Shown here in pieces: positions 2,542 to 54,724 of a stretch of 64,000 bases of DNA. The first letter of the stretch is position 1. Each line of letters starts with the position of its first letter. Under the pieces are notes generated by a model, which was not told the origin of the DNA, searched no databases, and worked only from the letters and a program-made list of their open reading frames with translations. The stretch is taken from NCBI RefSeq assembly GCF_000620465.1, contig NZ_JIBE01000003.1:1116001-1180000 (forward strand), written 5' to 3'. The stretch comes from Ralstonia sp. UNC404CL21Col (GTDB lineage Bacteria; Pseudomonadota; Gammaproteobacteria; Burkholderiales; Burkholderiaceae). Position numbers and translations under genes: made by a program.

Positions 2542-4146
2542 TTACTTCACGAGCGGCGGTTCTTCAAAGGTGTGGAACGGCGCCGGCGAGGGCACGGTCC
2601 ACTCCAGGCCTTCCGCGCCATCCCACGGCTTGTCGGCGGCCTTCTCGCCACCACGGTACGACGGCAGCACCACGAAGAAGAAGAAATACACCTGCATCAG
2701 GCCGAAACCCAGCGCGCCAATCGACGCGATCGCGTTGAAATCAGCGAACTGCTGCGGGTAATCCGCATAGCGGCGCGGCATGCCCGCCAGGCCCAGGAAG
2801 TGCATCGGGAAGAACGTGAGGTTGAAGGTGATCATCGAACCCCAGAAGTGGATCTTGCCGCGCGTTTCGCTGTACATGTAGCCCGACCACTTCGGACCCC
2901 AGTAGTAGAAGCCCGCGAACAGCGCGAACAGCGAACCGGCCACCAGAACGTAGTGGAAGTGCGCCACCACGTAGTAGGTGTCCTGCAGCTGGATGTCGAT
3001 CGGCGCTACGGCCAGGATCAGGCCCGTGAAGCCGCCCACCGTGAACACGAAGATGAAGCCGATCGCGAACAGCATCGGCGTCTCGAACGTCATCGAGCCG
3101 CGCCACATCGTGGCCACCCAGTTGAAGATCTTCACGCCGGTCGGCACCGCGATCAGCATCGTCGCGTACATGAAGAACAGCTGGCCCGTCACAGGCATGC
3201 CCGTCGTGAACATGTGGTGCGCCCACACGATGAACGACAGGATGGCGATCGACGCGGTGGCGTACACCATCGAGCTGTAGCCGAACAGCGGCTTGCGCGC
3301 GAAGGCCGGCACGATCTGGCTGACGATACCGAACGCCGGCAAGATCATGATGTACACCTCGGGGTGCCCGAAGAACCAGAAGATGTGCTGGTACATCACC
3401 GGGTCGCCGCCGCCGGCTGCAGAGAAGAAGCTCGTGCCGAAGTGGCGGTCGGTCAGCACCATGGTGATCGCGCCTGCCAGCACCGGCATCACGGCGATCA
3501 GCAGGTACGCCGTGATCAGCCACGTCCAGCAGAACATCGGCATCTTCATCAGCGTCATGCCGGGCGCGCGCATGTTCAGGATGGTCACGATGATGTTGAT
3601 CGCGCCCATGATGGAAGATGCGCCCATGATGTGGACTGCGAAGATCGCCATGTCCATGCCGGGGCCCATCTGGACCGACAGCGGCGCGTAGAGCGTCCAG
3701 CCGGCCGCCGTGGCACCGCCCGGTGCGAAGAACGAGCCCACCAGCAGCAGTGCCGCAGGCGGCAGCAGCCAGAAGCTGAAGTTGTTCATCCGCGCGAAGG
3801 CCATGTCGGAGGCCCCCACCTGCAGCGGGATCATCCAGTTCGCGAAGCCCACGAAGGCCGGCATGATGGCGCCGAACACCATGATCAGGCCGTGCAGCGT
3901 GGTGAACTGGTTGAACAGCTCCGGGTGGAAGAACTGCAGGCCGGGCTGGAACAGCTCAAGGCGGATCAGCAGGGCCAGCGTGCCGCCCGAGAGCAGCATC
4001 ATGAAAGAGAACAGCAGGTACAGCGTACCGATGTCCTTATGGTTGGTCGCGAACAGCCAACGGCGCCAGCCGTGCGGATGGTCGTGCGCGTGGTCGTCTC
4101 CATGACCGTGCGCGTGATCTTGCGGGTGCGTAACAGCGGTGCTCAT
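2542..4146 (-). CDS. ctaD: Cytochrome c oxidase subunit I
   Basis: This is the catalytic subunit of the aa3-type oxidase, 534 aa with about 12 transmembrane helices. The ligands are all visible: His85 (low-spin heme), His261 and Tyr265 in HPEVYIM (CuB and the cross-linked tyrosine), His310-His311 (CuB), and His396 and His398 in HFHYV (hemes). It reduces oxygen to water while pumping protons across the inner membrane. The N-terminal 25 residues are unusually rich in His and Asp, which might bind metal. It follows ctaC in the operon. Confidence 0.98.
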
Positions 4147-4186
4147 CGAGGAACTCCTAGGTTCGGTTCGTCACGCAGACGATCAA

Positions 4187-5443
4187 TCAGCCAGCGTTGC
4201 GGTCTTCGGCCGCATTCGCTTGTTTGGACGCCACCTTACCGGCGGATTCAGTTGCAGCAGTCTTGGCGGCCCCGCCTTCAGGCATCTTGCCGCCGCGCGC
4301 ATCCTTCACTTGCGTCGGCTGCAGCAGGTCACCGGTATGGTTGCCCCAGTTGTTGCGCTCGTAAGTGACGACGGCAGCGATTTCGACATCGTTCAGCGCC
4401 GAAGCCCAGGGCGGCATGGCGCCCTTGCCGTGCAGCACGATGCCAACGTGGTCGGCCAGCGGGCCATTGGCGATCTTCGAGCCATCCAGCGCCGGGAACG
4501 GGCCTCCGCCCTTGCCGTTCGGCTGGTGGCAGACCGCGCAGTTGGCGGTATAGACCTTCTCGCCGCGCGACTTCAGCTCGTCCAGCGTGTAGGTCTTGTT
4601 CGGGTCATCGGCCTTGGCGGCCATTTCCTTCTTCTTGCCGTCGACCCACTTGGTGTAGTCATCCTGCGAGAGCACGCGCACGACGATCGGCATGAAGGCG
4701 TGTTCCTTGCCGCACAGTTCAGCGCACTGGCCGCGATAGACGCCGACCTTCTCTGCCTTGAACCATGCGTCGCGCACGAAGCCCGGAATCGCATCCTGCT
4801 TCACGCCAAACGCCGGGATCATCCACGAGTGGATCACGTCGTTGGCGGTCGTGACGATGCGCACCTTGCGGTTGACCGGCACGACCAGCTCGTTGTCGAC
4901 TTCGATCAGGTACGTGGTGCTCTTGGGCGCCTGGTTGTTGATCTGGTCGCGGGGCGTGGTCAGCGTGGAGAGGAACGAGATGCCCTCGCCTTCGCCCTTC
5001 AGGTAGTCGTAACCCCACTTCCACTGGTAGCCGGTGGCCTTGATGGTGAGGTCGGAATTGGTGGTGTCCTTCATGGCGACCACGGCCTTGGTAGCCGGCA
5101 GCGCCATCCCGATCACGATCAGGAACGGCACGATGGTCCAGATGATTTCAACCGTGGTGCTTTCGTGGAACGTCGCAGGCTTGTGGCCGACCGACTTACG
5201 GTGCTTGAAAATGGAGTAGAACATCACCCCGAAAACACCGATGAAGATCACGATACAGATGATCAGCATCATCCAGTGCAGCCAATGGATCTCGGCAGCG
5301 ATCTTGGTGACCGGGGGCGCGAGATTGAGCTGCCGCACTGCGGGGCCGCCCGGCATGTCTTCCACTGCCAGGGCCGTTTGACTGAGGGCGAGGAGAGAGC
5401 CTGCCGCCAGCAAACTTGCCAATGTCTTATTCAACATTTTCAT
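4187..5443 (-). CDS. ctaC: Cytochrome c oxidase subunit II with C-terminal cytochrome c domain
   Basis: This 418-aa subunit receives electrons from cytochrome c. It has a signal peptide (residues 1-26), two transmembrane helices (about 58-82 and 104-126) and a periplasmic cupredoxin domain with the binuclear CuA ligands His215, Cys250, Cys254, His258 and Met261. A fused cytochrome c domain follows, with the heme motif CAVCH at residues 312-316. This makes it a caa3-like subunit II rather than the short form. The tail (about 380-418) is Ala/Lys rich and low in complexity. It is the first intact gene of the oxidase run. Confidence 0.97.
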   Translation of the reverse strand: MKMLNKTLASLLAAGSLLALSQTALAVEDMPGGPAVRQLNLAPPVTKIAAEIHWLHWMMLIICIVIFIGVFGVMFYSIFKHRKSVGHKPATFHESTTVEIIWTIVPFLIVIGMALPATKAVVAMKDTTNSDLTIKATGYQWKWGYDYLKGEGEGISFLSTLTTPRDQINNQAPKSTTYLIEVDNELVVPVNRKVRIVTTANDVIHSWMIPAFGVKQDAIPGFVRDAWFKAEKVGVYRGQCAELCGKEHAFMPIVVRVLSQDDYTKWVDGKKKEMAAKADDPNKTYTLDELKSRGEKVYTANCAVCHQPNGKGGGPFPALDGSKIANGPLADHVGIVLHGKGAMPPWASALNDVEIAAVVTYERNNWGNHTGDLLQPTQVKDARGGKMPEGGAAKTAATESAGKVASKQANAAEDRNAG

Positions 5444-8456: not shown

Positions 8457-9473
8457 CTAGCGTGCCGATTCGGATTTGGCGTCGCGCTGCAGCAGACGCT
8501 CGACCGCTTTCGCAGCAGGAAGCCCTTCGAACAGGACTTCGCAGACGGTAAAGGTAATCGGCATATCCACGCCCTTGGCACGCGCAAGCGCCGCCACCGC
8601 CCGCGCACAACGCACGCCCTCTGCAACGTGACCCAGGCTGTGGAGGATATCGTCCAGCGGGCGGCCCTGCGCGAGCTGCATCCCGACCGTGCGATTGCGT
8701 GACAAGTCGCCGGTGGCGGTCAACAGCAGATCGCCCATGCCGGTCAGCCCCATGAAGGTTTCCGGTCGCCCCCCGAGCGCCAAGCCGAGGCGCGTCATCT
8801 CGGCCAGCCCGCGCGTCACCAGTGCGGCACGCGCGTTCAACCCCAGCCCCAGGCCGTCCGCGGCGCCTGTCGCGATGGCCAGCACGTTCTTCACGGCACC
8901 GCCGACTTCCACGCCGACGAGGTCATCGCTGGCGTACACGCGCATCGCGTGATGGTGAAAACCGCGCTGCGTGAGCTTGCACAGCGCCTCGCTAGTGGAG
9001 GCGACCGTCATGGCGCACGGCAGACCCTGCGCGACTTCCTTGGCGAAACTCGGGCCCGACAGCACGCCGACAGCAAGGTCGGTACGGCCCGACATCTTCA
9101 GCACATCGGCGACGATGGCATGCGGCAGTGCGCTGGTCTCGGGGTCGAAACCCTTGCATAGCCAGATCACATTGCGCACGCCGCCGTGCGCGGCAATCGT
9201 GCGGGTCAGGTCAGCCAGCCCGGCCACAGGCGAAGCGATGACGGCGAGCCCGTCGTCGCCGGCCGCATGATCGAGGGCGGCTTGCAAATCAGCAGAAAAA
9301 CGCAACGACGCCTGCAGCGTCATGCCCGGCAAATACGGCGCGTTGATGTGCGTGGCGGCCATCTGCGTGACGAGATTCGCGTCACGCCCCCACAGCACGA
9401 CGTCGTGCGATTGCGCCGCGTGGCTGGCCAGGGCAGTGCCCCAGGCACCGGCACCCAAAACGGAAATTCGCAT
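8457..9473 (-). CDS. gpsA: NAD(P)-dependent glycerol-3-phosphate dehydrogenase
   Basis: This 338-aa enzyme makes sn-glycerol 3-phosphate from dihydroxyacetone phosphate for phospholipid synthesis. The nucleotide-binding motif [12 protein letters not shown] is at the N-terminus, and the catalytic region includes [14 protein letters not shown] and [18 protein letters not shown]. The start [12 protein letters not shown] at 9473 is chosen over an ATG five codons upstream because family members begin this way. It lies downstream of secB, separated by a terminator. Confidence 0.96.
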
Positions 9474-45000: not shown

Positions 45001-45810
45001 TCAGTACCTCGCCGTCAGCTTGAGGGCGACGGTGCGTCGGCCGAGCGTCATGCGATCCATGCCGTTGCGGGTGGAGAGTTGGTGGGCATAGGCGGATGCG
45101 TCCGCGCCGGTCAAAGCGGCAGACAGCGTCACGAACTTGTTGATGGGTCGGGAGAGTTCAACGCGGTAATCGGTAAAGCTGAATGCGCTGTGGTTGCGCA
45201 CATGCTCGTGGCCGACGTGCAGCCCGAGTGTGAAGTTGTTCGGCAAGGGCACGGCCCAGTTGGCTTCGGCGTAAGTGGAGCCGCGGCTGCCGCGGTCGAT
45301 GCCGTCCGCCAGCGAATTGCCATCGAAGCCGAAGTAGTTCGACAGCGTCGTCCATAACCTGACCGACACGCCGCGCCAGCCGGCCCCGACCATCCATTCC
45401 GTGTAGTCGTAGCCGGTGGCGGGGCCGCCGCCAGCGGCCTTGTCGTAGCGGGCACCGGGATACCAGTAGCGATAGAGCCCGGTGGTCAGTTCGACGCCGT
45501 GCGCGACGGTGGTGGCATAGCCGAGGTAGGTGTCGATTTCGGCATGCGCACCGGCGATGACGTGGTCGCTGACCTGCGAGCCCCACACGCCGGCATAAAA
45601 ACCGCTCGGCGATGTGTAGTCGACGCCCGCTTGGAGCGCAGGTTTTCCCCATGTCTGGCGCAGGCCGCGCGACACGTATTGCGAGACAACCGATGCATTG
45701 GCCGACCAGCGTCTGTCATCGCCCGCCGGCACCTCGTCCGCCAATGCCGGCAGCGCAGCTGCACACGCCGCCGCCCCGCCCAGCATTGCGGTGACCTTGC
45801 GCCAGCGCAT
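45001..45810 (-). CDS. TorF family putative outer-membrane porin (choline operon copy)
   Basis: This 269-aa exported protein has a signal peptide (residues 1-24, ALPALA) and the TorF-type barrel start VVSQYVSRGLRQTWGKPALQ, ending with aromatic Tyr as barrels do. It is a distant paralogue of the protein at 22892-23707. Its start codon shares one base with the betA stop (TGATG), so translation is coupled to betA. A role in passing choline, betaine or related compounds across the outer membrane is inferred. Confidence 0.85.
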   Translation of the reverse strand: MRWRKVTAMLGGAAACAAALPALADEVPAGDDRRWSANASVVSQYVSRGLRQTWGKPALQAGVDYTSPSGFYAGVWGSQVSDHVIAGAHAEIDTYLGYATTVAHGVELTTGLYRYWYPGARYDKAAGGGPATGYDYTEWMVGAGWRGVSVRLWTTLSNYFGFDGNSLADGIDRGSRGSTYAEANWAVPLPNNFTLGLHVGHEHVRNHSAFSFTDYRVELSRPINKFVTLSAALTGADASAYAHQLSTRNGMDRMTLGRRTVALKLTARY

Positions 45811-47531
45811 CAGGCCGCCACCAGTTCACTGGCAACCAGCGGCTTGACCGGCGCCTGCAGCGGCGATTTGCCGTGCACATAGAACGCCGCATCGGAGCGG
45901 GCGAGCGGCGCCACACCGCGAATCCGGTCGGCGATCTTCTCGGCCATCATGATCGTCGGCGCGTTGAGGTTGCCGGTGATGATGCGCGGCATGATCGACG
46001 CATCCACCACGCGCAGACCCTGCAAGCCATGCACACGGCCTTCGTTGTCGACCACGGCCATCGGATCGTCGGCCGAACCCATCTTGCAGGTGCAGGACGG
46101 ATGCAGCGCAGTCTCGGCGTGTTGCCGCACGAAGGCGTCGATCTCGGCGTCGGTCTGTACGCTCGGGCCCGGGCTGATCTCACGACCGCGGTATTGGTCG
46201 AACGCACGCTGCGCGATGATGTCGCGCGTGATGCGTACACCGGCGCGGAATTCACGCCAATCCACGTCATGCGCCATGTAGTTGAAGAGGATGCGGGGCT
46301 TGTCACGCGGATCGCGCGAGGCGAGCTTCACGTAACCGGTGGACGGCGAACGCATCGAACCCACGTGGCACTGGAACCCATGCATCTTCACCGGGTTGCT
46401 GCCGTCGTAGTTCACGGCCAGCGGCAGGAAGTGGTACTGGATGTTCGGCCATTCGAAGCTGTCATCGCTGCGGATGAACCCACCCGCCTCGAAGTGGTTG
46501 CTGGCGCCGGGGCCGGTGCCGTGCATGTACCACTCCAGCCCGACCTTCGGCTTGTTGTACCAAAGCGTGTTTTCGTAGATCGACACCGGGCGCAGGCACT
46601 CGTACTGGATGTACATCTCCAGATGGTCCTGCAGGTTCTCGCCCACACCGGGCAGATGCGCCACCGAGTGGATGCCCAGGGCGCGCAGCTCGTCGGCATT
46701 GCCGACGCCCGAGCGCTGCAGCAACTGCGGCGAAGCGATAGCGCCACTGGCGACGATCACCTCGCGGCGCGCGCGCCATGTTTCGCGGTTGCCGTCCATC
46801 AGCGCCTCGACGCCGACCGCACGCGTGCCATCGAAGATCACGCGATCGGCCAGCACGCGCGGCAGCACCGTCAGCGTGGACCGCTTGCGCGCCTCGTCGA
46901 GATAGCACAGCGATGTGCTGGCGCGGCGGCCCTTGGCGGTGACGGTGCGATCCATCGGGCCCAGGCCCTCCTGGCGATAGCCGTTCAGGTCGTCCGTGGC
47001 CGGAATACCGGCTTGCTCACCGGCTTCGATAAAGGCGTGGAACAGCAGGCTGTTGTCGTGCTTGGGCGTGCTGACCTGCAGCGGGCCCGAATCGCCGTGC
47101 CAGTCGTTGGCGCCCTTGTCATACGTTTCCGATTTGCGGAAGTACGGCAGGCAGTCGGCATACGTCCAGTCGGGCAAGTTGAAATCGCTCGCCCAGCGCT
47201 CGTAATCCATCGCGTTGCCGCGAATGAAACACATGCCATTGATGAGCGACGACCCGCCCAGCCCCTTGCCGCGGCCTTGCGCCATACGGCGGTTGTTCAT
47301 GTGCGGCTCGGGCTCGGTTTCGTAGGCCCAGTTGTACGTGGTGCCTTGCAGCGGATACGCCAGCGCCGCCGGCATCTGCGTGCGGAAATCCCAGCGGTGG
47401 TCGGGGCCGCCGGCTTCCAGCAGCAGCACGGTCACGTCCGCGTCTTCGGTCAGGCGCGCAGCCAGCGTGCAACCAGCCGAGCCCGCGCCCACGATGATGT
47501 AGTCGTACTCCTGTACGGTGTTTGTGGTCAA
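45810..47531 (-). CDS. betA: Choline dehydrogenase
   Basis: This 573-aa FAD enzyme of the GMC family oxidises choline to betaine aldehyde. It has the FAD-binding motif [34 protein letters not shown] and a C-terminal GMC block [18 protein letters not shown]. The start is probably TTG at 47531, because GGAGGG lies just upstream; the longer frame has only a GTG overlapping the betB stop. It lies 16 bases after betB. Other GMC alcohol oxidases are possible but the pairing with betB supports choline. Confidence 0.93.
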
Positions 47532-47547
47532 AACATGCCCTCCGTTC

Positions 47548-49071
47548 TTACTCAGCACCGGCGCCGAACCAGCCCATCGGCTGCGGTGCGAGGTTGATGT
47601 AGCTGTGCTTCAGTTCGGTGTACTCGTCGAGACCGCCCCGGCCCAGTTCGCGGCCGATGCCGCTGGCCTTGTAGCCGCCCCACGGCGCCTCAGGGAAGTA
47701 CGGGTGATAGTCGTTGGCCCACACGGTGCCGAAACGCAGTGCGCGGGTCACCCGGTTGGCGCGGTTCAGGTCGGCCGTCCACACCGCGCCCGCCAAGCCG
47801 AACGGCGTGGCGTTGGCGCGGCGCACCGCTTCTTCTTCGGTGGAGAAGCGCTCAACGGTCAGCGCCGGGCCGAAGATTTCTTCGGTGGCGATCTTCATGT
47901 CGTCGCGCACATTGGCGAGCACGGTCGGCTCCAGCCAGAAGCCGCGCTCGAACGCCTCGCCCTCCGGCGCCTTGCCGCCACAGCGCAGCACCGCACCTTC
48001 CTGCACGCCGGCCTGGATCATGTTGATGATCTTCTGGCGCTGGAATGCGGATTGCACCGGGCCCATCTCCGTGCCTTCGGCAAAGCCGTTGCCGATACGG
48101 ATGCGCTTGACGCGCTCGACCAGCGCATCGACAAAGCGGTCGTGAATGCCGTCTTGCAGCATCAGGCGCGATCCGGCCGAGCACACCTGGCCCGCGTGGA
48201 AGAACGCCGCATTGACTGCGTAGTCGACGGCGGCATCGAAATCTGCGTCGTCGAAGATGATGTTCGGGTTCTTGCCGCCCAGCTCCAGGGCGACTTTCTT
48301 GAAGTTGCCGATGGCCGCATTCATGACCGCCGCGCCGGCAACCGCCCCACCGGTGAACGAAACGAGATCCACGTCCAGATTGCGCGACAGCTCGGCCCCG
48401 GCCTCGCCCGCACCGGTGACAAGGTTGAACACGCCCGCCGGCACGCCAACCTCGATCAGCAGTTCGGCAAAGCGGTGCGTGGTCAGCGGCGTCAGGTTGC
48501 TCGGCTTGACGATGACGGTGTTGCCCGCGCCCAGTGCCGGCGCGATTTTCCAGGCGGCTTGCAGCAGCGGGTAGTTCCACGGCGTGATGAGGCCGCATAC
48601 GCCCACCGGCTCGCGCAGCGTGCGGCTGATGACCGTGTCGGGCGCCTCGTTGATGAGACCGGATTCCGTGGCAACCAACCCCGCGAAATAGCGGAACGTC
48701 GCGGCAATGCCGTCCATGTCCCAGCGGCTTTCGGTGATCGTCTTGCCGGTGTTGAGCGATTCGAGCGTCGCGAGGTTCTCGGCGTCTGCGTCGATGGCGT
48801 CGGCAATGCGGTTGAGCAGGCGAGCGCGATCGCGGGTGCCCGTCTGGCGCCACGGCCCTTCGTCAAACGCGCGGCGGGCGGCGGCAATGGCGCGCTGCAC
48901 ATCGGCCACGGAGGCATCGGCCGCCTGCGTCAGGACGTTTTCGGTGGCGGGATCGACGATGTCGCGGTACACGCCGCCCTCGGGCTGCACCCACTGGCCG
49001 TCGATATAGAGATCAAGACGGGGTGCCAGCGTGGCGGAATGGAATTCGGTGGAAAGGGAAGCTTGCGTCAT
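47548..49071 (-). CDS. betB: Betaine aldehyde dehydrogenase
   Basis: This 507-aa aldehyde dehydrogenase makes glycine betaine. Catalytic Glu263 is in [12 protein letters not shown] and Cys297 is in AGQVCSAG. The NAD-binding segment FTGGAVAGA is normal. The start at 49071 ([10 protein letters not shown]) is preferred over the 33-residue longer frame. It is the first gene of the bet operon, divergent from the HTH-PAS regulator. Specificity is inferred from operon context. Confidence 0.93.
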
Positions 49072-49240
49072 ATCCAGTACCCCTGGTGAATGGCTGGCGC
49101 ACAAAGAGACGGCGCCCGAAATGCCGACACCGTAGCGTCTTGGCAGACGACATTCGGCGTGGCGACCCATAAATTCACTGTTGGTGTTTTTATTTACCTT
49201 TGGAGAATTTTGGACTAGTCTAGGAAAAATTAGTTGCGTC

Positions 49241-49338: not shown

Positions 49339-50784
49339 ATGACCGCCGCAGCACTTCCGCCGCCCGACGGCCCCATCGATGACGACAGCTTTGCCGGCCG
49401 CCTCAAAGGCGTGCTGACACGCGGCCGCATCCAGCTCAAGCAGGTGGCGGCGGCGCTGCGCGTATCCCCCTCGGCGGTCCACAAATGGACGCGTGGCGGC
49501 GAGATCGAATACGCCAACCTGCTGGCATTGGCCCGCTTCCTGAACGTGAATTGGCTGTGGCTGCGCTACGGCGATCGCGCCCTCGCCGATCTGGAAGCCA
49601 GCCTGACCACCGACGTCCGCGCCCGCGAAGGCCGCCAGAAGCACATCGCCGCCATCATGGAAAGCGAGGCGCGCATGACCTTCGCGCAGGAGATTTCCGG
49701 CGTGGTCACGTGGGAGTGGAACCTGTTGACGGACGCGGTCGCGTATTCACCGAATGCCGCCCGCCTCTTTGGCCGGCCGATCCGCACGCTGGACGATTTT
49801 TGGCAATGCGTGCTTCCCGAAGACGTGCCCGGCGTGCAGGCCGCGGTCTCGCAGAACCTCAGCGCGGGCGGCGTCTACGAGCATGAATTCCGCATTGCGC
49901 CGGCGCCGGACGTGGTGCGCTGGATCGTCTCGCGGGCAACGCTCGTGCGTGATGCGCAGGACCGCCCGGTCAAGATGATCGGCCTGAGCCTGGACACCAC
50001 GGAGCGCCACACCGCCGAAGCCGCGTTGCGCGATTCGGAGGCGTTGCTGGCCAAGGCGCAGCAGATCGCCCACCTCGGCAGCTGGCTCTGGGAACCGGGC
50101 ACCGATGCCTGCCGATGGACGGACGAGGCTTACCGCATCTTCGGCTGGGCGCCGCAATCCACGCCCGTGACGATGGCGCGCTATCTGGAGGCCATCGTTC
50201 CCGCAGATCGCGCCCGCGTGCAGGCCGTGCTGGACCGCGCCGTGGCATCGCGCCAGCCGTATCGCGTTGAATACACCATCACCCTGCCCGACGGTTCCCA
50301 CCGCCATCTTCGTGAAGAAGGCGAAGCGCAGGACCCATCGGCCGCCACGCCCACGATGATCGGCGCGGCGCAGGACATCACCGCTGAAGTGGAAGCCCAA
50401 GCTGCCTTCCGCGACAGCGAAGCCAAGCTGCGGACGTTGTTCGAACAGGTGCCCGTCGGCATCGCGCAGGTCAGCCTGGAAGGCCGCTGCCTGCGCGCCA
50501 ACCCGTGGCTTTGCACGCTGCTGGGCCAGTCGGAAACAGCGCTGCAGCAGCGGACGCTGCTCGACCTCACGCACCGCAACGACCTCGCTCGCCACCTGCG
50601 CCAGTACGGTGAGTTGCTCGCCGGCACGGTACCAACGTATGCGCTATCGCTGCAGTTGGTACGCGGGGATGGCTCTGCCGTACCGGTGCGGATCACCACG
50701 TCCTTGGCGCGCGATCCGGCTACGGACGCACCGCTGCATCTGATTACCGTGGTCGACACCGTGCCCGAGGCGGGGGCCTCGTAG
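49339..50784 (+). CDS. HTH protein with three PAS domains
   Basis: This 481-aa protein has an N-terminal XRE-type helix-turn-helix (about residues 19-75; LKQVAAALRVSPSAVHKWTR), then three PAS/PAC repeats (about 115-235, 245-350 and 365-478; the third begins LRTLFEQVPVGIAQVSLEGR). No kinase, GGDEF or EAL output domain follows. It is therefore a DNA-binding sensor rather than a two-component kinase. It is divergent from betB and precedes the EamA unit, so control of choline genes is likely. Ligands or cofactors of the PAS domains cannot be read from sequence. Confidence 0.85.
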   Translation: MTAAALPPPDGPIDDDSFAGRLKGVLTRGRIQLKQVAAALRVSPSAVHKWTRGGEIEYANLLALARFLNVNWLWLRYGDRALADLEASLTTDVRAREGRQKHIAAIMESEARMTFAQEISGVVTWEWNLLTDAVAYSPNAARLFGRPIRTLDDFWQCVLPEDVPGVQAAVSQNLSAGGVYEHEFRIAPAPDVVRWIVSRATLVRDAQDRPVKMIGLSLDTTERHTAEAALRDSEALLAKAQQIAHLGSWLWEPGTDACRWTDEAYRIFGWAPQSTPVTMARYLEAIVPADRARVQAVLDRAVASRQPYRVEYTITLPDGSHRHLREEGEAQDPSAATPTMIGAAQDITAEVEAQAAFRDSEAKLRTLFEQVPVGIAQVSLEGRCLRANPWLCTLLGQSETALQQRTLLDLTHRNDLARHLRQYGELLAGTVPTYALSLQLVRGDGSAVPVRITTSLARDPATDAPLHLITVVDTVPEAGAS

Positions 50785-50976
50785 CCTCGTAGCCCAGCAC
50801 ACCCCGACGTCACAGACGTCAACTTCTGACAATCCCGTCAACCCTTGCGACTTTTTCCGGCATGCCTGGAGGGCCGGCATAGACTCTAGAAAACTCATAG
50901 TTAATTTATCAACCTCCAGTAACTAAAGCGTCACCCAGGTTTTCGGGACTGACGCGTACAGAACAAGGAGATCGGT

Positions 50977-52047
50977 TTGGCTTCTTCCTCCGCCGCCCGC
51001 GCGGCCCATCATCAACGCACACTGCAGTGGGGTTACCGCTGGGCCTTATGGGCCGCCATCCTCTGGGGCGCTTGGTACGTGCCCGGCACGGCCGTCTGGC
51101 ATGAATCCCCATTCGCCGCGATGGACCTTTCCGACCCGCGCGTGTTCCTGGTCTGCGCAGCGGTCATCACGGCGTTCCACAGCGTCATGGTGACGGTCTT
51201 CCAGTGGGTGTGGCTCGGCTCGCTCGGCAAGCTGGGGGATTACTTCCGCACCCTCGGCCAATTCCGCAAGATCTCGCGCTGGTACTTCATTGCGGCGGTC
51301 GTGGGCGGGCTGATGGCCAACTTCGGCTCGTATCTCGCGATGGGCTATGTGGGCGCCGTGTTTGCGGCCGTCGCCGGGCTGCTGTATCCGGTGGTGGGCG
51401 CGACGGTGGCCAAGCTTTGGTACAACGAGCGCATCAGCGCACGGGCGGCGGTGGGCATCGCCATCATCATCCTGGGCGGGGTGGCGATCTACGCGCCGGC
51501 ACTGATGGCCGAATCGCACAGCGGCAGCCATCAGTGGATCGGCTACCTGGGTGGCGCCATGGCCGCCATCGGCTGGGGCCTGGAAGGCGCGATCGTCGGA
51601 CGCGCCATGGACGTGACAGATCCCGACTGCGGGGTCTCCATCCGCTACACCGCCGAGGCCATCTACTGGGTCGTTTTCATCCTGCCGGCCATCGCGCTGT
51701 TCGTGCATGTGCCGGTGCCCGTGACGGAGATTGCCTCGGGCATCGTCCACAGCAAGGCGCTGCTGTGGCTGGTCGTGGGCGGCCTCACCTTCTCGTTCTG
51801 CGCAGTCGCCTGGTACAAGTCGTTCCCGTTGATCGGCGTGGGACGCGGGCAGGCGCTGGGCGCGTTCTACGCAATGTTCGCCACCCTCTTCACAGCCATC
51901 TTCACGCTGCAGTTTCCGGAGTGGTATTTCCTGATCGGGCTGGCGCTGGTGATCTTCGGCGGCTTCGTGATGGTGTCGGAAAGCGCGGAAAACCTGGAAG
52001 TCATCCGCGGCGGCACGGCACCTGCAACCACGGAGACGCACGCATGA
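50977..52047 (+). CDS. EamA-like 10-TM transporter
   Basis: This 356-aa membrane protein has about ten helices in two EamA-like halves (first half WALWAAILWGAWYVPGTAVW; pair of segments around YLAMGYVGAVFAAVAGLLYP). Start is TTG at 50977, with AAGGAG six bases upstream. It belongs to the DMT superfamily, but the substrate is unknown; its place between the bet regulator and phospholipase C suggests a choline-related or phosphocholine-related solute. Its stop overlaps the next start by ATGA. Confidence 0.85.
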   Translation: MASSSAARAAHHQRTLQWGYRWALWAAILWGAWYVPGTAVWHESPFAAMDLSDPRVFLVCAAVITAFHSVMVTVFQWVWLGSLGKLGDYFRTLGQFRKISRWYFIAAVVGGLMANFGSYLAMGYVGAVFAAVAGLLYPVVGATVAKLWYNERISARAAVGIAIIILGGVAIYAPALMAESHSGSHQWIGYLGGAMAAIGWGLEGAIVGRAMDVTDPDCGVSIRYTAEAIYWVVFILPAIALFVHVPVPVTEIASGIVHSKALLWLVVGGLTFSFCAVAWYKSFPLIGVGRGQALGAFYAMFATLFTAIFTLQFPEWYFLIGLALVIFGGFVMVSESAENLEVIRGGTAPATTETHA

Positions 52048-52346
52048 AACTGCACATGAAGGGCTACGTCCTGCAACTGCTCGCGGGCAGCGACATGCTG
52101 TGGGACAGCGAAATCGCCCATCGCACCTGCATCGAATACGGCAAACCCGAAGACGAGTACTGGACCGGCAGCGTTCGCGCCATCCTCTCAGACCTGTACT
52201 CCGGAGGCCTGGTGCAAACCTCCGAAGACCAGCTCGACGACGCCACCAACAAGATGCACTTCCGCTACGCCATCACCGAGTTTGGCCGTCAGCGCATGGC
52301 CGACACCGGCCTGCTCGACCTCGAATCGAAGGAGACCACGCAATGA
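52044..52346 (+). CDS. Small winged-helix-like protein, coupled to the transporter
   Basis: This 100-aa soluble protein has a winged-helix look: LHMKGYVLQLLAGSDMLWDS, then VRAILSDLYSGGLVQTSED and a strand-turn-strand NKMHFRYAITEFGRQRM. This resembles PadR-type DNA-binding domains but no clear family is recognised. It overlaps the transporter gene by four bases and its own stop overlaps the next start by four bases. It may be a regulator or a cytoplasmic partner of the transporter. Confidence 0.75.
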   Translation: MKLHMKGYVLQLLAGSDMLWDSEIAHRTCIEYGKPEDEYWTGSVRAILSDLYSGGLVQTSEDQLDDATNKMHFRYAITEFGRQRMADTGLLDLESKETTQ

Positions 52347-52453
52347 CGCAGTATTGGGGCTATCCGTTTGCCGATGTCCTGGCGATCGTGGTGATCGTCG
52401 GGCTGAGCGCGCTGGCGCTGTACCAGGCACGCACGTACACGAAACAACTCTGA
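52343..52453 (+). CDS. 36-aa single-helix membrane microprotein
   Basis: This very short gene encodes 36 aa: a polar start MTQYWGYPFADV, one transmembrane helix (about residues 12-28) and a basic tail ARTYTKQL. The four-base ATGA overlap with the preceding gene and the terminator just after it support a real gene. Single-helix microproteins often adjust larger transporters; here that is inferred for the EamA-like protein. Confidence 0.7.
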   Translation: MTQYWGYPFADVLAIVVIVGLSALALYQARTYTKQL

Positions 52454-52473: not shown

Positions 52474-52513
52474 AAAACGGCCCGCTGGCAAGTCACGCCA
52501 GCGGGCCGTTTTG
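52474..52513. terminator. Strong bidirectional terminator between the EamA unit and phospholipase C
   Basis: A perfect 14-bp stem AACGGCCCGCTGGC/GCCAGCGGGCCGTT (52476-52489 and 52497-52510) lies between convergent genes, with T runs on both sides. Confidence 0.9.
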
Positions 52514-52525
52514 CTGGGGTGTCGC

Positions 52526-54628
52526 TTATGCGCTCAGCGCCGGATCGGACGCGCTGACACGGCCGGTCTCAACGTGGCCAGCAAGGCGACGCTCAAAGCC
52601 GGCATCGCTGCTGGCCGTGACGGTCATGTCGTACCAGGCGTGCTGGCTGCGCAGGTCCAGGTACACCGCCGCATCGTCACCGCCGCGCACTTCACGTTGC
52701 ACGCTCTCGCCCGTGTAGGCGCTCTTGATGGTGAAGACGGTAGGCGCGCGGCCGTGGTTGATGAGACGCAGTTGCAGGTTGCCGTTGGCTACGTCGTAGC
52801 CTTCCTTCACTTCCAACGCGCGACCATGCGGACGCAGCAGGCCCGACAGCGTGAGCTTGCCGACAAAGCGGCGCAGGAAGCCGTTGGGGCCATGCACCGT
52901 GAAGTCATACGCGCCGCCAGCGTTGACGGCCAGCTTGTCCGACAGGCGCTTGCCTGCCTCGACGGTGTAGGTGCGCGGTGCGTCCGTGCTGCCGGTGGTG
53001 TAGACGAGGAAGGCGGCGCCCAAGTCCCCGGTGTTCACGAATTCCAGTTGGAACTTGCCGGCGGCTTCGTCCTGGCGGCCGCGCACGAACAGTTCGTACG
53101 GCAGCGCACGCGATGGGCGCCCGCCGGCTTCCTGCTTGGGTACGGCCTGCACCAGCGGCGGCAGCGGTACGTAGCTGGCGTGGCGCAGCTTGTCTTTCGG
53201 CACATAGGCGGTGGTGCTCGGCAGCGCGGGCACCACCTCGTTGGGCGTGGCGAAGTTGAACGCCGACGTCAGATCGCCGCAGACGGCGCGACGCCACTTC
53301 GAGATGTTGGGCGAGCGCACGTTGTGCGTGCGCTTGAAGCGCTGTTCGATGAAACGGATGATCGACGTGTGGTCGAACGTTTCCGAGCACACGAAGCCGC
53401 CCTTGGACCACGGCGACACCACGAGCATCGGCACGCGCTGGCCCAGGCCGTAGCTGCCGGCGCCGTACGTGCTGTTGCCCGGAAAGTATTCGCCGCTGGT
53501 GTCGACCGTCGACAGGCCATTGCTGCCCGACGATGCAAACGGCGGGACGAGGTGGTCGAAGAAACCGTCGTTCTCGTCGTAGGTGATGAACACCGCGGTC
53601 TTGCTCCACACCTCGGGGTTCGAAGTCAGGATCTGCAGGACTTGGTCGATGTACCAGGCGCCATAGTTGGCCGGCCAGTTCGGATGCTCGGAGAACGCTT
53701 CCGGCGCGGCAATCCACGACACCTGCGGCAACGTGCCGTACTGCACGTCGCGCTTGAGGATGTCGAAGTAGCCGTCGCCGGCTGCTGCGTTGGTGCCGGT
53801 GCGCGCCTTGTCGTACAGCGGGCTGCCGGGCTGTGCATTCTGGTATTGCTTGAAGTACAGCAGCGAGTTGTCGCCGTAGTTGCCGATGTAGGCGTCGCTC
53901 GTCCAGCCCCAGGAGCCCGCGGCGTCCAGGCCCGTGCCGATGTCCTGGTAGATCTTCCACGAGATGCCGGCGGCCTCCAGCACCTCCGGATACGTCGACC
54001 AGCCGTAGCCCGCTTCTGCGTTGTCGATCACGGGGCCGCCGCCGACGTTGTCGTTGCCGACGTAGCCGGTCCACATGTAGTAGCGGTTCGGATCGGTCGA
54101 CGTGGGTGTCGCGCAGTGATAGGCGTCGCAGATGGTGAAGGCGTCGGCCAGCGCGTAGTGGAACGGAATGTCCTGGCGCGTCAGGTACGCCATCGTCGTG
54201 GTGCCCTTGTGCGGGACCCAGCCATCGTAACGGCCGCCGTTGACGGCAAGGTGCGTGTCGTTCCAGCCGTGCGGCAGGTCTTGCAGGAACTGCAGGCCCA
54301 GATCGGGCGCGCTCGGGCGGAACGGCAGCACTTCGCCCACGCCACCGGCCATCGGCTGATGCCACACGCTCTTGCCGGTCGGCAGCGTGACGGTGCGCGT
54401 ATCGCCATACCCGCGCACGCCACGCAGCGTGCCGAAGTAATGGTCGAACGAGCGGTTTTCCTGCATGAGGATCACGATGTGCTGCACGTCTTCGATCGTG
54501 CGGTGCGCGTTATGGGCGGGAATCGCCAGCGCTTGGCGAATGCCTTCGGGCACCGCGCCCATGGCTGCAGATGCAGCAGCCAACTGGGCAGCGGAACGGA
54601 GAAAACCACGGCGACTGTTGGAGGTCAT
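52526..54628 (-). CDS. plcN: Phosphocholine-type phospholipase C, Tat-exported
   Basis: This 700-aa enzyme hydrolyses phosphatidylcholine to diacylglycerol and phosphocholine. It starts with a twin-arginine signal (SRRGFLRSAAQLAAASAAMG) and has the phosphoesterase site IVILMQENRSFDHYFGTLRG, followed by two C-terminal beta domains typical of PlcH/PlcN. The start at 54628 has a GGAG site (TTGGAGGTCAT read on the plus strand context). It ends at the strong terminator. Choline release from its product would feed betA-betB. The hemolytic or non-hemolytic type is not decided from sequence. Confidence 0.93.
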   Translation of the reverse strand: MTSNSRRGFLRSAAQLAAASAAMGAVPEGIRQALAIPAHNAHRTIEDVQHIVILMQENRSFDHYFGTLRGVRGYGDTRTVTLPTGKSVWHQPMAGGVGEVLPFRPSAPDLGLQFLQDLPHGWNDTHLAVNGGRYDGWVPHKGTTTMAYLTRQDIPFHYALADAFTICDAYHCATPTSTDPNRYYMWTGYVGNDNVGGGPVIDNAEAGYGWSTYPEVLEAAGISWKIYQDIGTGLDAAGSWGWTSDAYIGNYGDNSLLYFKQYQNAQPGSPLYDKARTGTNAAAGDGYFDILKRDVQYGTLPQVSWIAAPEAFSEHPNWPANYGAWYIDQVLQILTSNPEVWSKTAVFITYDENDGFFDHLVPPFASSGSNGLSTVDTSGEYFPGNSTYGAGSYGLGQRVPMLVVSPWSKGGFVCSETFDHTSIIRFIEQRFKRTHNVRSPNISKWRRAVCGDLTSAFNFATPNEVVPALPSTTAYVPKDKLRHASYVPLPPLVQAVPKQEAGGRPSRALPYELFVRGRQDEAAGKFQLEFVNTGDLGAAFLVYTTGSTDAPRTYTVEAGKRLSDKLAVNAGGAYDFTVHGPNGFLRRFVGKLTLSGLLRPHGRALEVKEGYDVANGNLQLRLINHGRAPTVFTIKSAYTGESVQREVRGGDDAAVYLDLRSQHAWYDMTVTASSDAGFERRLAGHVETGRVSASDPALSA

Positions 54629-54724
54629 GTTCTCGTCCTGATGTCTGTGTGTTTGGGGTTGGGGGTGGGGGGGAGTTGCGGGGACAACACGGGGCAACGC
54701 CAGACTAAGCGCGAGCGAACGCAG

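Follow-up and report, generated by a model that had tools for sequence, protein, structure and literature searches.

What task a transporter shares with a winged-helix protein of 100 residues and a membrane microprotein of 36, all encoded back to back, is the question raised by a locus of Ralstonia sp. UNC404CL21Col. The window, i.e., the whole stretch of 64,000 nucleotides analyzed here (contig NZ_JIBE01000003.1, positions 1,116,001 to 1,180,000), contains this trio at its positions 50,977 to 52,453, and the genes are designated T (transporter), W (winged helix) and M (microprotein) in the following. The trio travels with genes for the breakdown of choline, carnitine, trimethylamine and trimethylamine N-oxide (TMAO), and is for this reason on balance probably one uptake system for N-trimethyl compounds, with M and W as partners of T. 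This substrate class (choline/trimethylamine type) is well supported, whereas the particular substrate and the transport direction, a physical complex and the action of W are what we infer.

The trio or a W-M remnant is located at most 20 kb from a gene for an N-trimethyl-compound enzyme in 12 of 14 bacterial lineages (the author's own grouping: Ralstonia, Chromobacterium, Crenobacter, Cupriavidus, G004, G176, Azoarcus, Paracoccus, G419, G667, G937, and G1072; G and L numbers are handles for genomes and loci). In the window, the trio is part of a choline-oxidation cluster (Table 1), and four Chromobacterium loci retain the genes for choline dehydrogenase, aldehyde dehydrogenase and the regulator with helix-turn-helix (HTH) and PAS domains. 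Homologs of the HTH-PAS protein, encoded ahead of T in both Chromobacterium and Crenobacter, show 52-56% identity. The Crenobacter trio is preceded by genes for carnitine monooxygenase (3.9e-121 to PDB 6y8j) and the HTH-PAS protein and directly followed by one for a reductase; an assignment of the oxygenase as glycine betaine monooxygenase was rejected, as it reaches 145 bits where the cut-off is 670. In G1072, the gene immediately before T codes for trimethylamine monooxygenase, whereas in G937 M is followed directly by the gene for TMAO demethylase and then by that for trimethylamine monooxygenase, and in G667, a Geodermatophilaceae metagenome-assembled genome (MAG), directly by a TMAO demethylase gene that breaks off with the contig. 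Trimethylamine dehydrogenase clusters that also encode an iron-sulfur protein and electron transfer flavoproteins are present in Azoarcus, Cupriavidus, G004, G176, and Paracoccus; their dehydrogenases are 67-72% identical to that of G419, which reaches 1237 bits to PDB 1djn. A NarL-type two-component system is encoded near this cluster in Azoarcus, Cupriavidus, G004, and G176, but not in Paracoccus.

Table 1. Features of the trio and its surroundings (positions in the window).
Feature	Position	Strand	Description
TorF-family putative porin	45001..45810	-	Pfam Gcw_chp, 7.5e-39
BetA, choline dehydrogenase	45810..47558	-	TIGR01810, 861 bits (cut-off 732)
Betaine-aldehyde-dehydrogenase-like protein	47548..49170	-	TIGR01804, 620 bits (below cut-off 669)
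HTH + PAS sensor/regulator	49339..50784	+	directly upstream of T; Pfam HTH_3, PAS_3
Ribosome binding site AAGGAG and spacer	50965..50976	+	ahead of the TTG of T; read from the sequence
T	50977..52047	+	EamA/drug/metabolite transporter (DMT) superfamily transporter, 356 aa, TTG start
W	52044..52346	+	predicted winged-helix protein, 100 aa
M	52343..52453	+	predicted single-span membrane microprotein, 36 aa
Terminator hairpin	52474..52512	.	A/T runs on both sides; common to the trio and the converging phospholipase C gene
Phosphocholine-specific phospholipase C	52526..54697	-	converging on the trio; TIGR03396, 866 bits (cut-off 580)

The association was also examined from the side of the enzymes. 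A trimethylamine-dehydrogenase-like gene (E <= 1e-150) could be found in 12 of the 369 genomes of the class, the same 369 that were searched for W, with up to three dehydrogenase candidates scored per genome. It is present in 3 of the 4 W-positive and in 9 of the 365 W-negative genomes (p 1e-4, uncorrected for genome kinship). No T was found at E <= 1e-20 in the nine W-negative genomes with a dehydrogenase-like gene. One of the clusters, that of G353, has a transporter of the amino-acid-permease type nearby (three G353 proteins were put to Pfam), and no alternative permease was recognized within the 19 kb examined for the clusters of G438 and G640 and the second cluster of G419, where gene calling is confused by the high G + C content. 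This second cluster reflects a second trimethylamine dehydrogenase gene in G419 (G419:C14). Within the genus Ralstonia, BetA is present with at least 92% identity in 12 of 12 genomes with an intact trio, while the best match in the four trio-less genomes is 45-46% identical. Carriers of the BCCT family are missing from 7 of the 12 trio genomes, including that of the window, and were found in the other 5 as well as in 1 of the 4 trio-less genomes. An OpuAC-type binding protein is encoded in 5/5 genomes checked, trio-bearing and trio-less alike.

The transporter itself fits this context. T is predicted to adopt the DMT fold and contains an EamA domain (39.3 bits; Pfam cut-off 28.2). Among solved proteins, LicB, the choline importer of Streptococcus pneumoniae (PDB 7b0k, 7paf), is its closest relative in sequence, where it is the sole PDB match, as well as in fold. 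In the fold comparison LicB forms the top row, followed within 2.3 Z by a triose-phosphate translocator. The two proteins are 19-20% identical across the structure, and a W-G-x-E motif at residues 200-203 of T is aligned to W-G-S-E of LicB. LicB belongs to the lic phosphorylcholine pathway, whereas T is encoded in oxidation clusters; we know of no small partner proteins of LicB. Two carriers are implicated in microbial trimethylamine uptake in PMC11708041 (2024), namely MttP, a putative trimethylamine permease of methanogens that belongs to the DMT superfamily, is encoded beside trimethylamine enzymes and is of unproven function, and TmaT, a sodium/trimethylamine symporter of the BCCT family. 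In a choline-demethylation cluster, the top matches of an EamA protein are MttP and LicB, according to PMC12155760. T shares its superfamily with MttP, and a T relative with 39% identity exists in the methanogen Methanohalobium, where, in contrast to the trio, neither W nor M was found beside the T-like gene. With TmaT it has in common trimethylamine as the proposed substrate in trimethylamine clusters, but the families differ: T is an EamA protein, and the BCCT model has no match in the genome of the window. TmoP, the TMAO permease of Methylocella, is presumably an APC-superfamily protein, and going by this family T is probably not TmoP. T adds a carrier to the LicB/MttP-like part of this superfamily.

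As a LicB-type DMT carrier, T would import choline where it stands among choline-oxidation genes (Ralstonia and Chromobacterium) and either trimethylamine or TMAO where its neighbors encode trimethylamine dehydrogenase, trimethylamine monooxygenase or TMAO demethylase; for Crenobacter, the imported compound would probably be carnitine. The opposite direction, i.e., T as an exporter that rids the cell of amines which the neighboring enzymes release and which are toxic or in surplus (trimethylamine, betaine aldehyde or others), would agree with the many EamA proteins that are exporters and with Crenobacter, where the trio sits between the genes for the reductase and for carnitine monooxygenase, an enzyme that produces trimethylamine. 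In the trimethylamine dehydrogenase and monooxygenase clusters, however, the amine is a substrate to be retained, and LicB, the closest known relative, is titled an importer in the PDB, so that export appears improbable.

The sequence-only reading had named conservation of the two small frames beside the transporter in relatives as the point on which the unit stands or falls, and this conservation was found in searches led by either gene. With W as the query, matches were obtained in 15 of the 299 family genomes, 4 of the 369 class genomes and 2 of the 398 phylum genomes, the genome of the window being counted each time, together with 2 of 346 genomes from the phylum of the actinobacterial MAG G667, which is counted and was first found via T. 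These amount to 21 different genomes. T is located directly upstream of W in 19 of them (in G507 it is cut by the contig start) and M downstream in all 21, frameshifted in one. The two exceptions for T are G419, in whose genome no T was found and whose M is the frameshifted one, and G058, in which M is intact but T and W are reduced to fragments. In G419 (L047, minus strand), W near 9099-9389 and M near 8936-9037 lie beside the trimethylamine dehydrogenase cluster. The G058 locus, which belongs to the genus of the window (L015, 1394-1640), joins the final parts of T and W to the intact M and resembles an internal operon deletion. With T as the query, W and M could be identified at 15/15 loci of genome contigs, ten of which are on the same contigs as in the W-led search, the new ones being Crenobacter and four Chromobacterium loci. 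Among five plasmid records, W was found in four, and M, sought in four, in three. T, W and M stand side by side in other classes and another phylum, too.

On a plasmid of Methanohalobium evestigatum (L034, 7971-9056), the T relative lies near an IS630-type transposase. G667 has a second, partial T of 161 residues at a contig end (L095, G667:C209, 4591-5055), which adjoins a second formate-tetrahydrofolate ligase gene (92% identical).

The patchy spread (4/369, 2/398 and 2/346 genomes, query or center genome included) and the presence on plasmids fit horizontal transfer, and the three genes might accordingly be passengers, a generic EamA operon of unrelated function that was dragged along with catabolic islands. 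We regard this as very improbable, given that the N-trimethyl theme is common to different islands of unrelated enzymes and that the trimethylamine monooxygenase gene directly adjoins T in G1072, as does the TMAO demethylase gene M in G937 and G667.

Concerning the architecture of the unit, a base-by-base check located the three frames exactly where they had been placed, and both proposed junctions could be confirmed in the window, where T and W, and again W and M, share the four bases ATGA. In a wider set these overlaps vary: among 15 representatives, the T/W overlap occurs in 6, the W/M overlap in 4 and both in 2. The other junctions are gaps of 1-62 bases, except for three Chromobacterium loci (L026, L027, L028) whose W-M gap of 150-296 bases exceeds those of all other loci examined. 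The four-base overlaps are a lineage trait, typical of Ralstonia and not general, and since they vary by lineage, the conserved features are adjacency and gene order. The strong bidirectional terminator described behind M was confirmed by folding (-33.4 kcal/mol, z -4.5 against shuffled sequences), and the A and T runs on both sides make it suited to both strands. In an alignment of the genus with 13 rows (12 different loci, as L012 and L024 are the same contig), the hairpin as well as CAGAACARGGAG with the TTG start of T are kept in 13/13 rows.

Within the genus, ratios of nonsynonymous to synonymous substitution rates (dN/dS) against the window are 0.04-0.09 for T (6 of 11 comparisons; five T of other length were excluded), 0.17-0.41 for W and 0-0.42 for M (11 comparisons each). 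The maximum for W comes from L016 and rests on ten differences, that for M from L024. The frames of W and M look to be under purifying selection inside the genus, which, like the recurrence of all three proteins side by side, speaks against a mere chance arrangement.

The 100-residue W had been described as winged-helix-like, and its predicted structure is indeed a winged helix (predicted local distance difference test, pLDDT, 90.6) with three helices and a two-stranded wing, nearest to RosR, PadR, and MarR in structure comparison. It has the fold of PadR/RosR regulators but, at 14 bits, stays below the Pfam PadR cut-off of 27; in addition, its helix at the C-terminus is short, and its gene stands between those for a transporter and a membrane microprotein. 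Invariant residues in 11 sequences include H4, K6-G7, W20-D21, Y32, Y39, R45, G55-L56, F80-G81, and R84-M85, while the wing tip varies. An interpretation of W as an acidic protein-binding module was dropped because the net charge of its homologs ranges from -10 to +4. No relative of W was found among viral contigs (45 pattern matches examined).

M is predicted to be one helix, as had been proposed, with a single hydrophobic stretch of 19 residues starting at residue 9. Its length of 36-37 residues is conserved in 15/15 representatives, and in these the N-terminal [F/Y]-W-G-[Y/F] occurs in 11 and an A-R near the C-terminus in 14. The last nine residues carry a net charge of +2, and of +2 to +4 in the homologs; by the positive-inside rule M is predicted to be oriented N-out and C-in. 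No Pfam family was found for M at E <= 1, and an NCBIfam match (E 0.17, 12.5 bits against a cut-off of 80) was taken as chance. M is absent from the gene tables, themselves incomplete, of two annotated plasmids that carry it, so that it may be overlooked elsewhere. AcrZ, KdpF, and MgtS are small single-helix proteins that bind large membrane transporters, and M is comparable to them by description; we know of no such partner for any DMT carrier.

The fold of W raises the question whether it is an ordinary PadR/RosR-like DNA-binding regulator of local genes that shares its mRNA with T, with M being separate and T transporting alone. This is unlikely in our view. No clear common operator-like palindrome was found in the 200 bases upstream of T at 18 loci, the residues of the wing loop show little conservation, and the C-terminal helix (residues 79-88) is short. 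Moreover, the neighborhoods already hold other, changing regulators, namely HTH-PAS proteins or a histidine kinase with a NarL-like protein. Finally, each W-positive genome has one W match, which lies away from a full T only in G419, the degraded G058 and the contig-cut G507. Gene order, this near-inseparability and the unrelated regulators in the same clusters favor the role of a partner over that of a plain repressor. As part of the proposed uptake system, M could be a single-span accessory subunit, N-out and C-in, that packs against T and stabilizes or tunes it in the membrane, while W could be a cytosolic partner that docks on T or M and gates transport or reports the state of the transporter.

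Several observations weigh against the trio being such an uptake system. The gene context fits import and export alike, and also several N-trimethyl compounds. No marker enzymes are encoded near the trio on the 6- and 10-kb contigs of G507 and G563, the dehydrogenase match of G563 is only 44% identical, and the archaeal Methanohalobium locus is a further miss for N-trimethyl-compound enzymes, with neither W nor M next to T in the stretch examined. The partial T of G667 runs off its contig, so that the sequence for a following W or M ends there. A trimethylamine dehydrogenase with at least 71% identity is present in five class genomes, of which only G419, lacking T, and G507 have W, and the trio would hence be one of several solutions. 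As BetA and the trio are neighbors, their joint absence in the genus may go back to a single deletion, and the BCCT carriers in 5 of the 12 trio genomes together with OpuAC in all five genomes checked imply that other choline routes exist. The charge spread of W, in addition, suits neither DNA binding nor a fixed electrostatic contact.

Further observations concern the surroundings of the trio. The TorF-like porin of the window is 40% identical over 205 residues to TorF of the Azoarcus cluster; TorF is also encoded in the Cupriavidus and G004 clusters, and a weaker match is present in that of G419. A TorF-like gene occurs in the W-negative trimethylamine dehydrogenase clusters L091 and L092 as well, so that the porin was dropped as evidence for import; it may be an outer-membrane partner of the pathway. 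In the trimethylamine dehydrogenase cluster of L033, a leucine-rich-repeat-variant (LRV/HEAT) protein (3535-4920) is encoded between the genes for the iron-sulfur protein and the electron transfer flavoprotein, and an unnamed gene of similar size takes this position in Azoarcus (L061, 3171-4616). Around 83-104 bases ahead of T in Crenobacter (L023) there is an AT-rich palindrome, TTTGGTAAATTAATTAACCAAT; Chromobacterium has sites that resemble it, and some Ralstonia have part of it. The palindrome may be the operator of the HTH-PAS protein, as it occurs in clusters having this protein; about 3-9% of shuffled sequences match as well.

A description of the T-W-M set was not found in the literature covered (titles, starts of abstracts and passages, with subscription journals outside this coverage), which agrees with the sequence-only reading that no such system was known. 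The unit is not free-standing, however: its location in N-trimethyl clusters in most lineages suggests a likely function. Uptake of trimethylamine by microbes is poorly known, and the trio is one candidate system for it. Among Pseudomonadota it is found in clusters for trimethylamine dehydrogenase, trimethylamine monooxygenase, TMAO demethylase, carnitine and choline, and two further trio genomes belong to the phylum of the Geodermatophilaceae MAG; as it spans several cluster types, one series of assays could resolve a number of pathways at once. Should M and W turn out to be subunits, the system would combine a DMT carrier with accessory proteins, one of them a winged helix that acts as a transporter partner. 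A heteromeric DMT transporter, in which a LicB-like carrier is combined with a dedicated single-span subunit and a membrane-held winged-helix subunit whose DNA-binding-type domain gates or directly signals the uptake of trimethylamine, choline or carnitine, is a tentative and somewhat doubtful proposal. If true, it would supply a missing entry route for trimethylamine in bacteria with trimethylamine dehydrogenase or monooxygenase.
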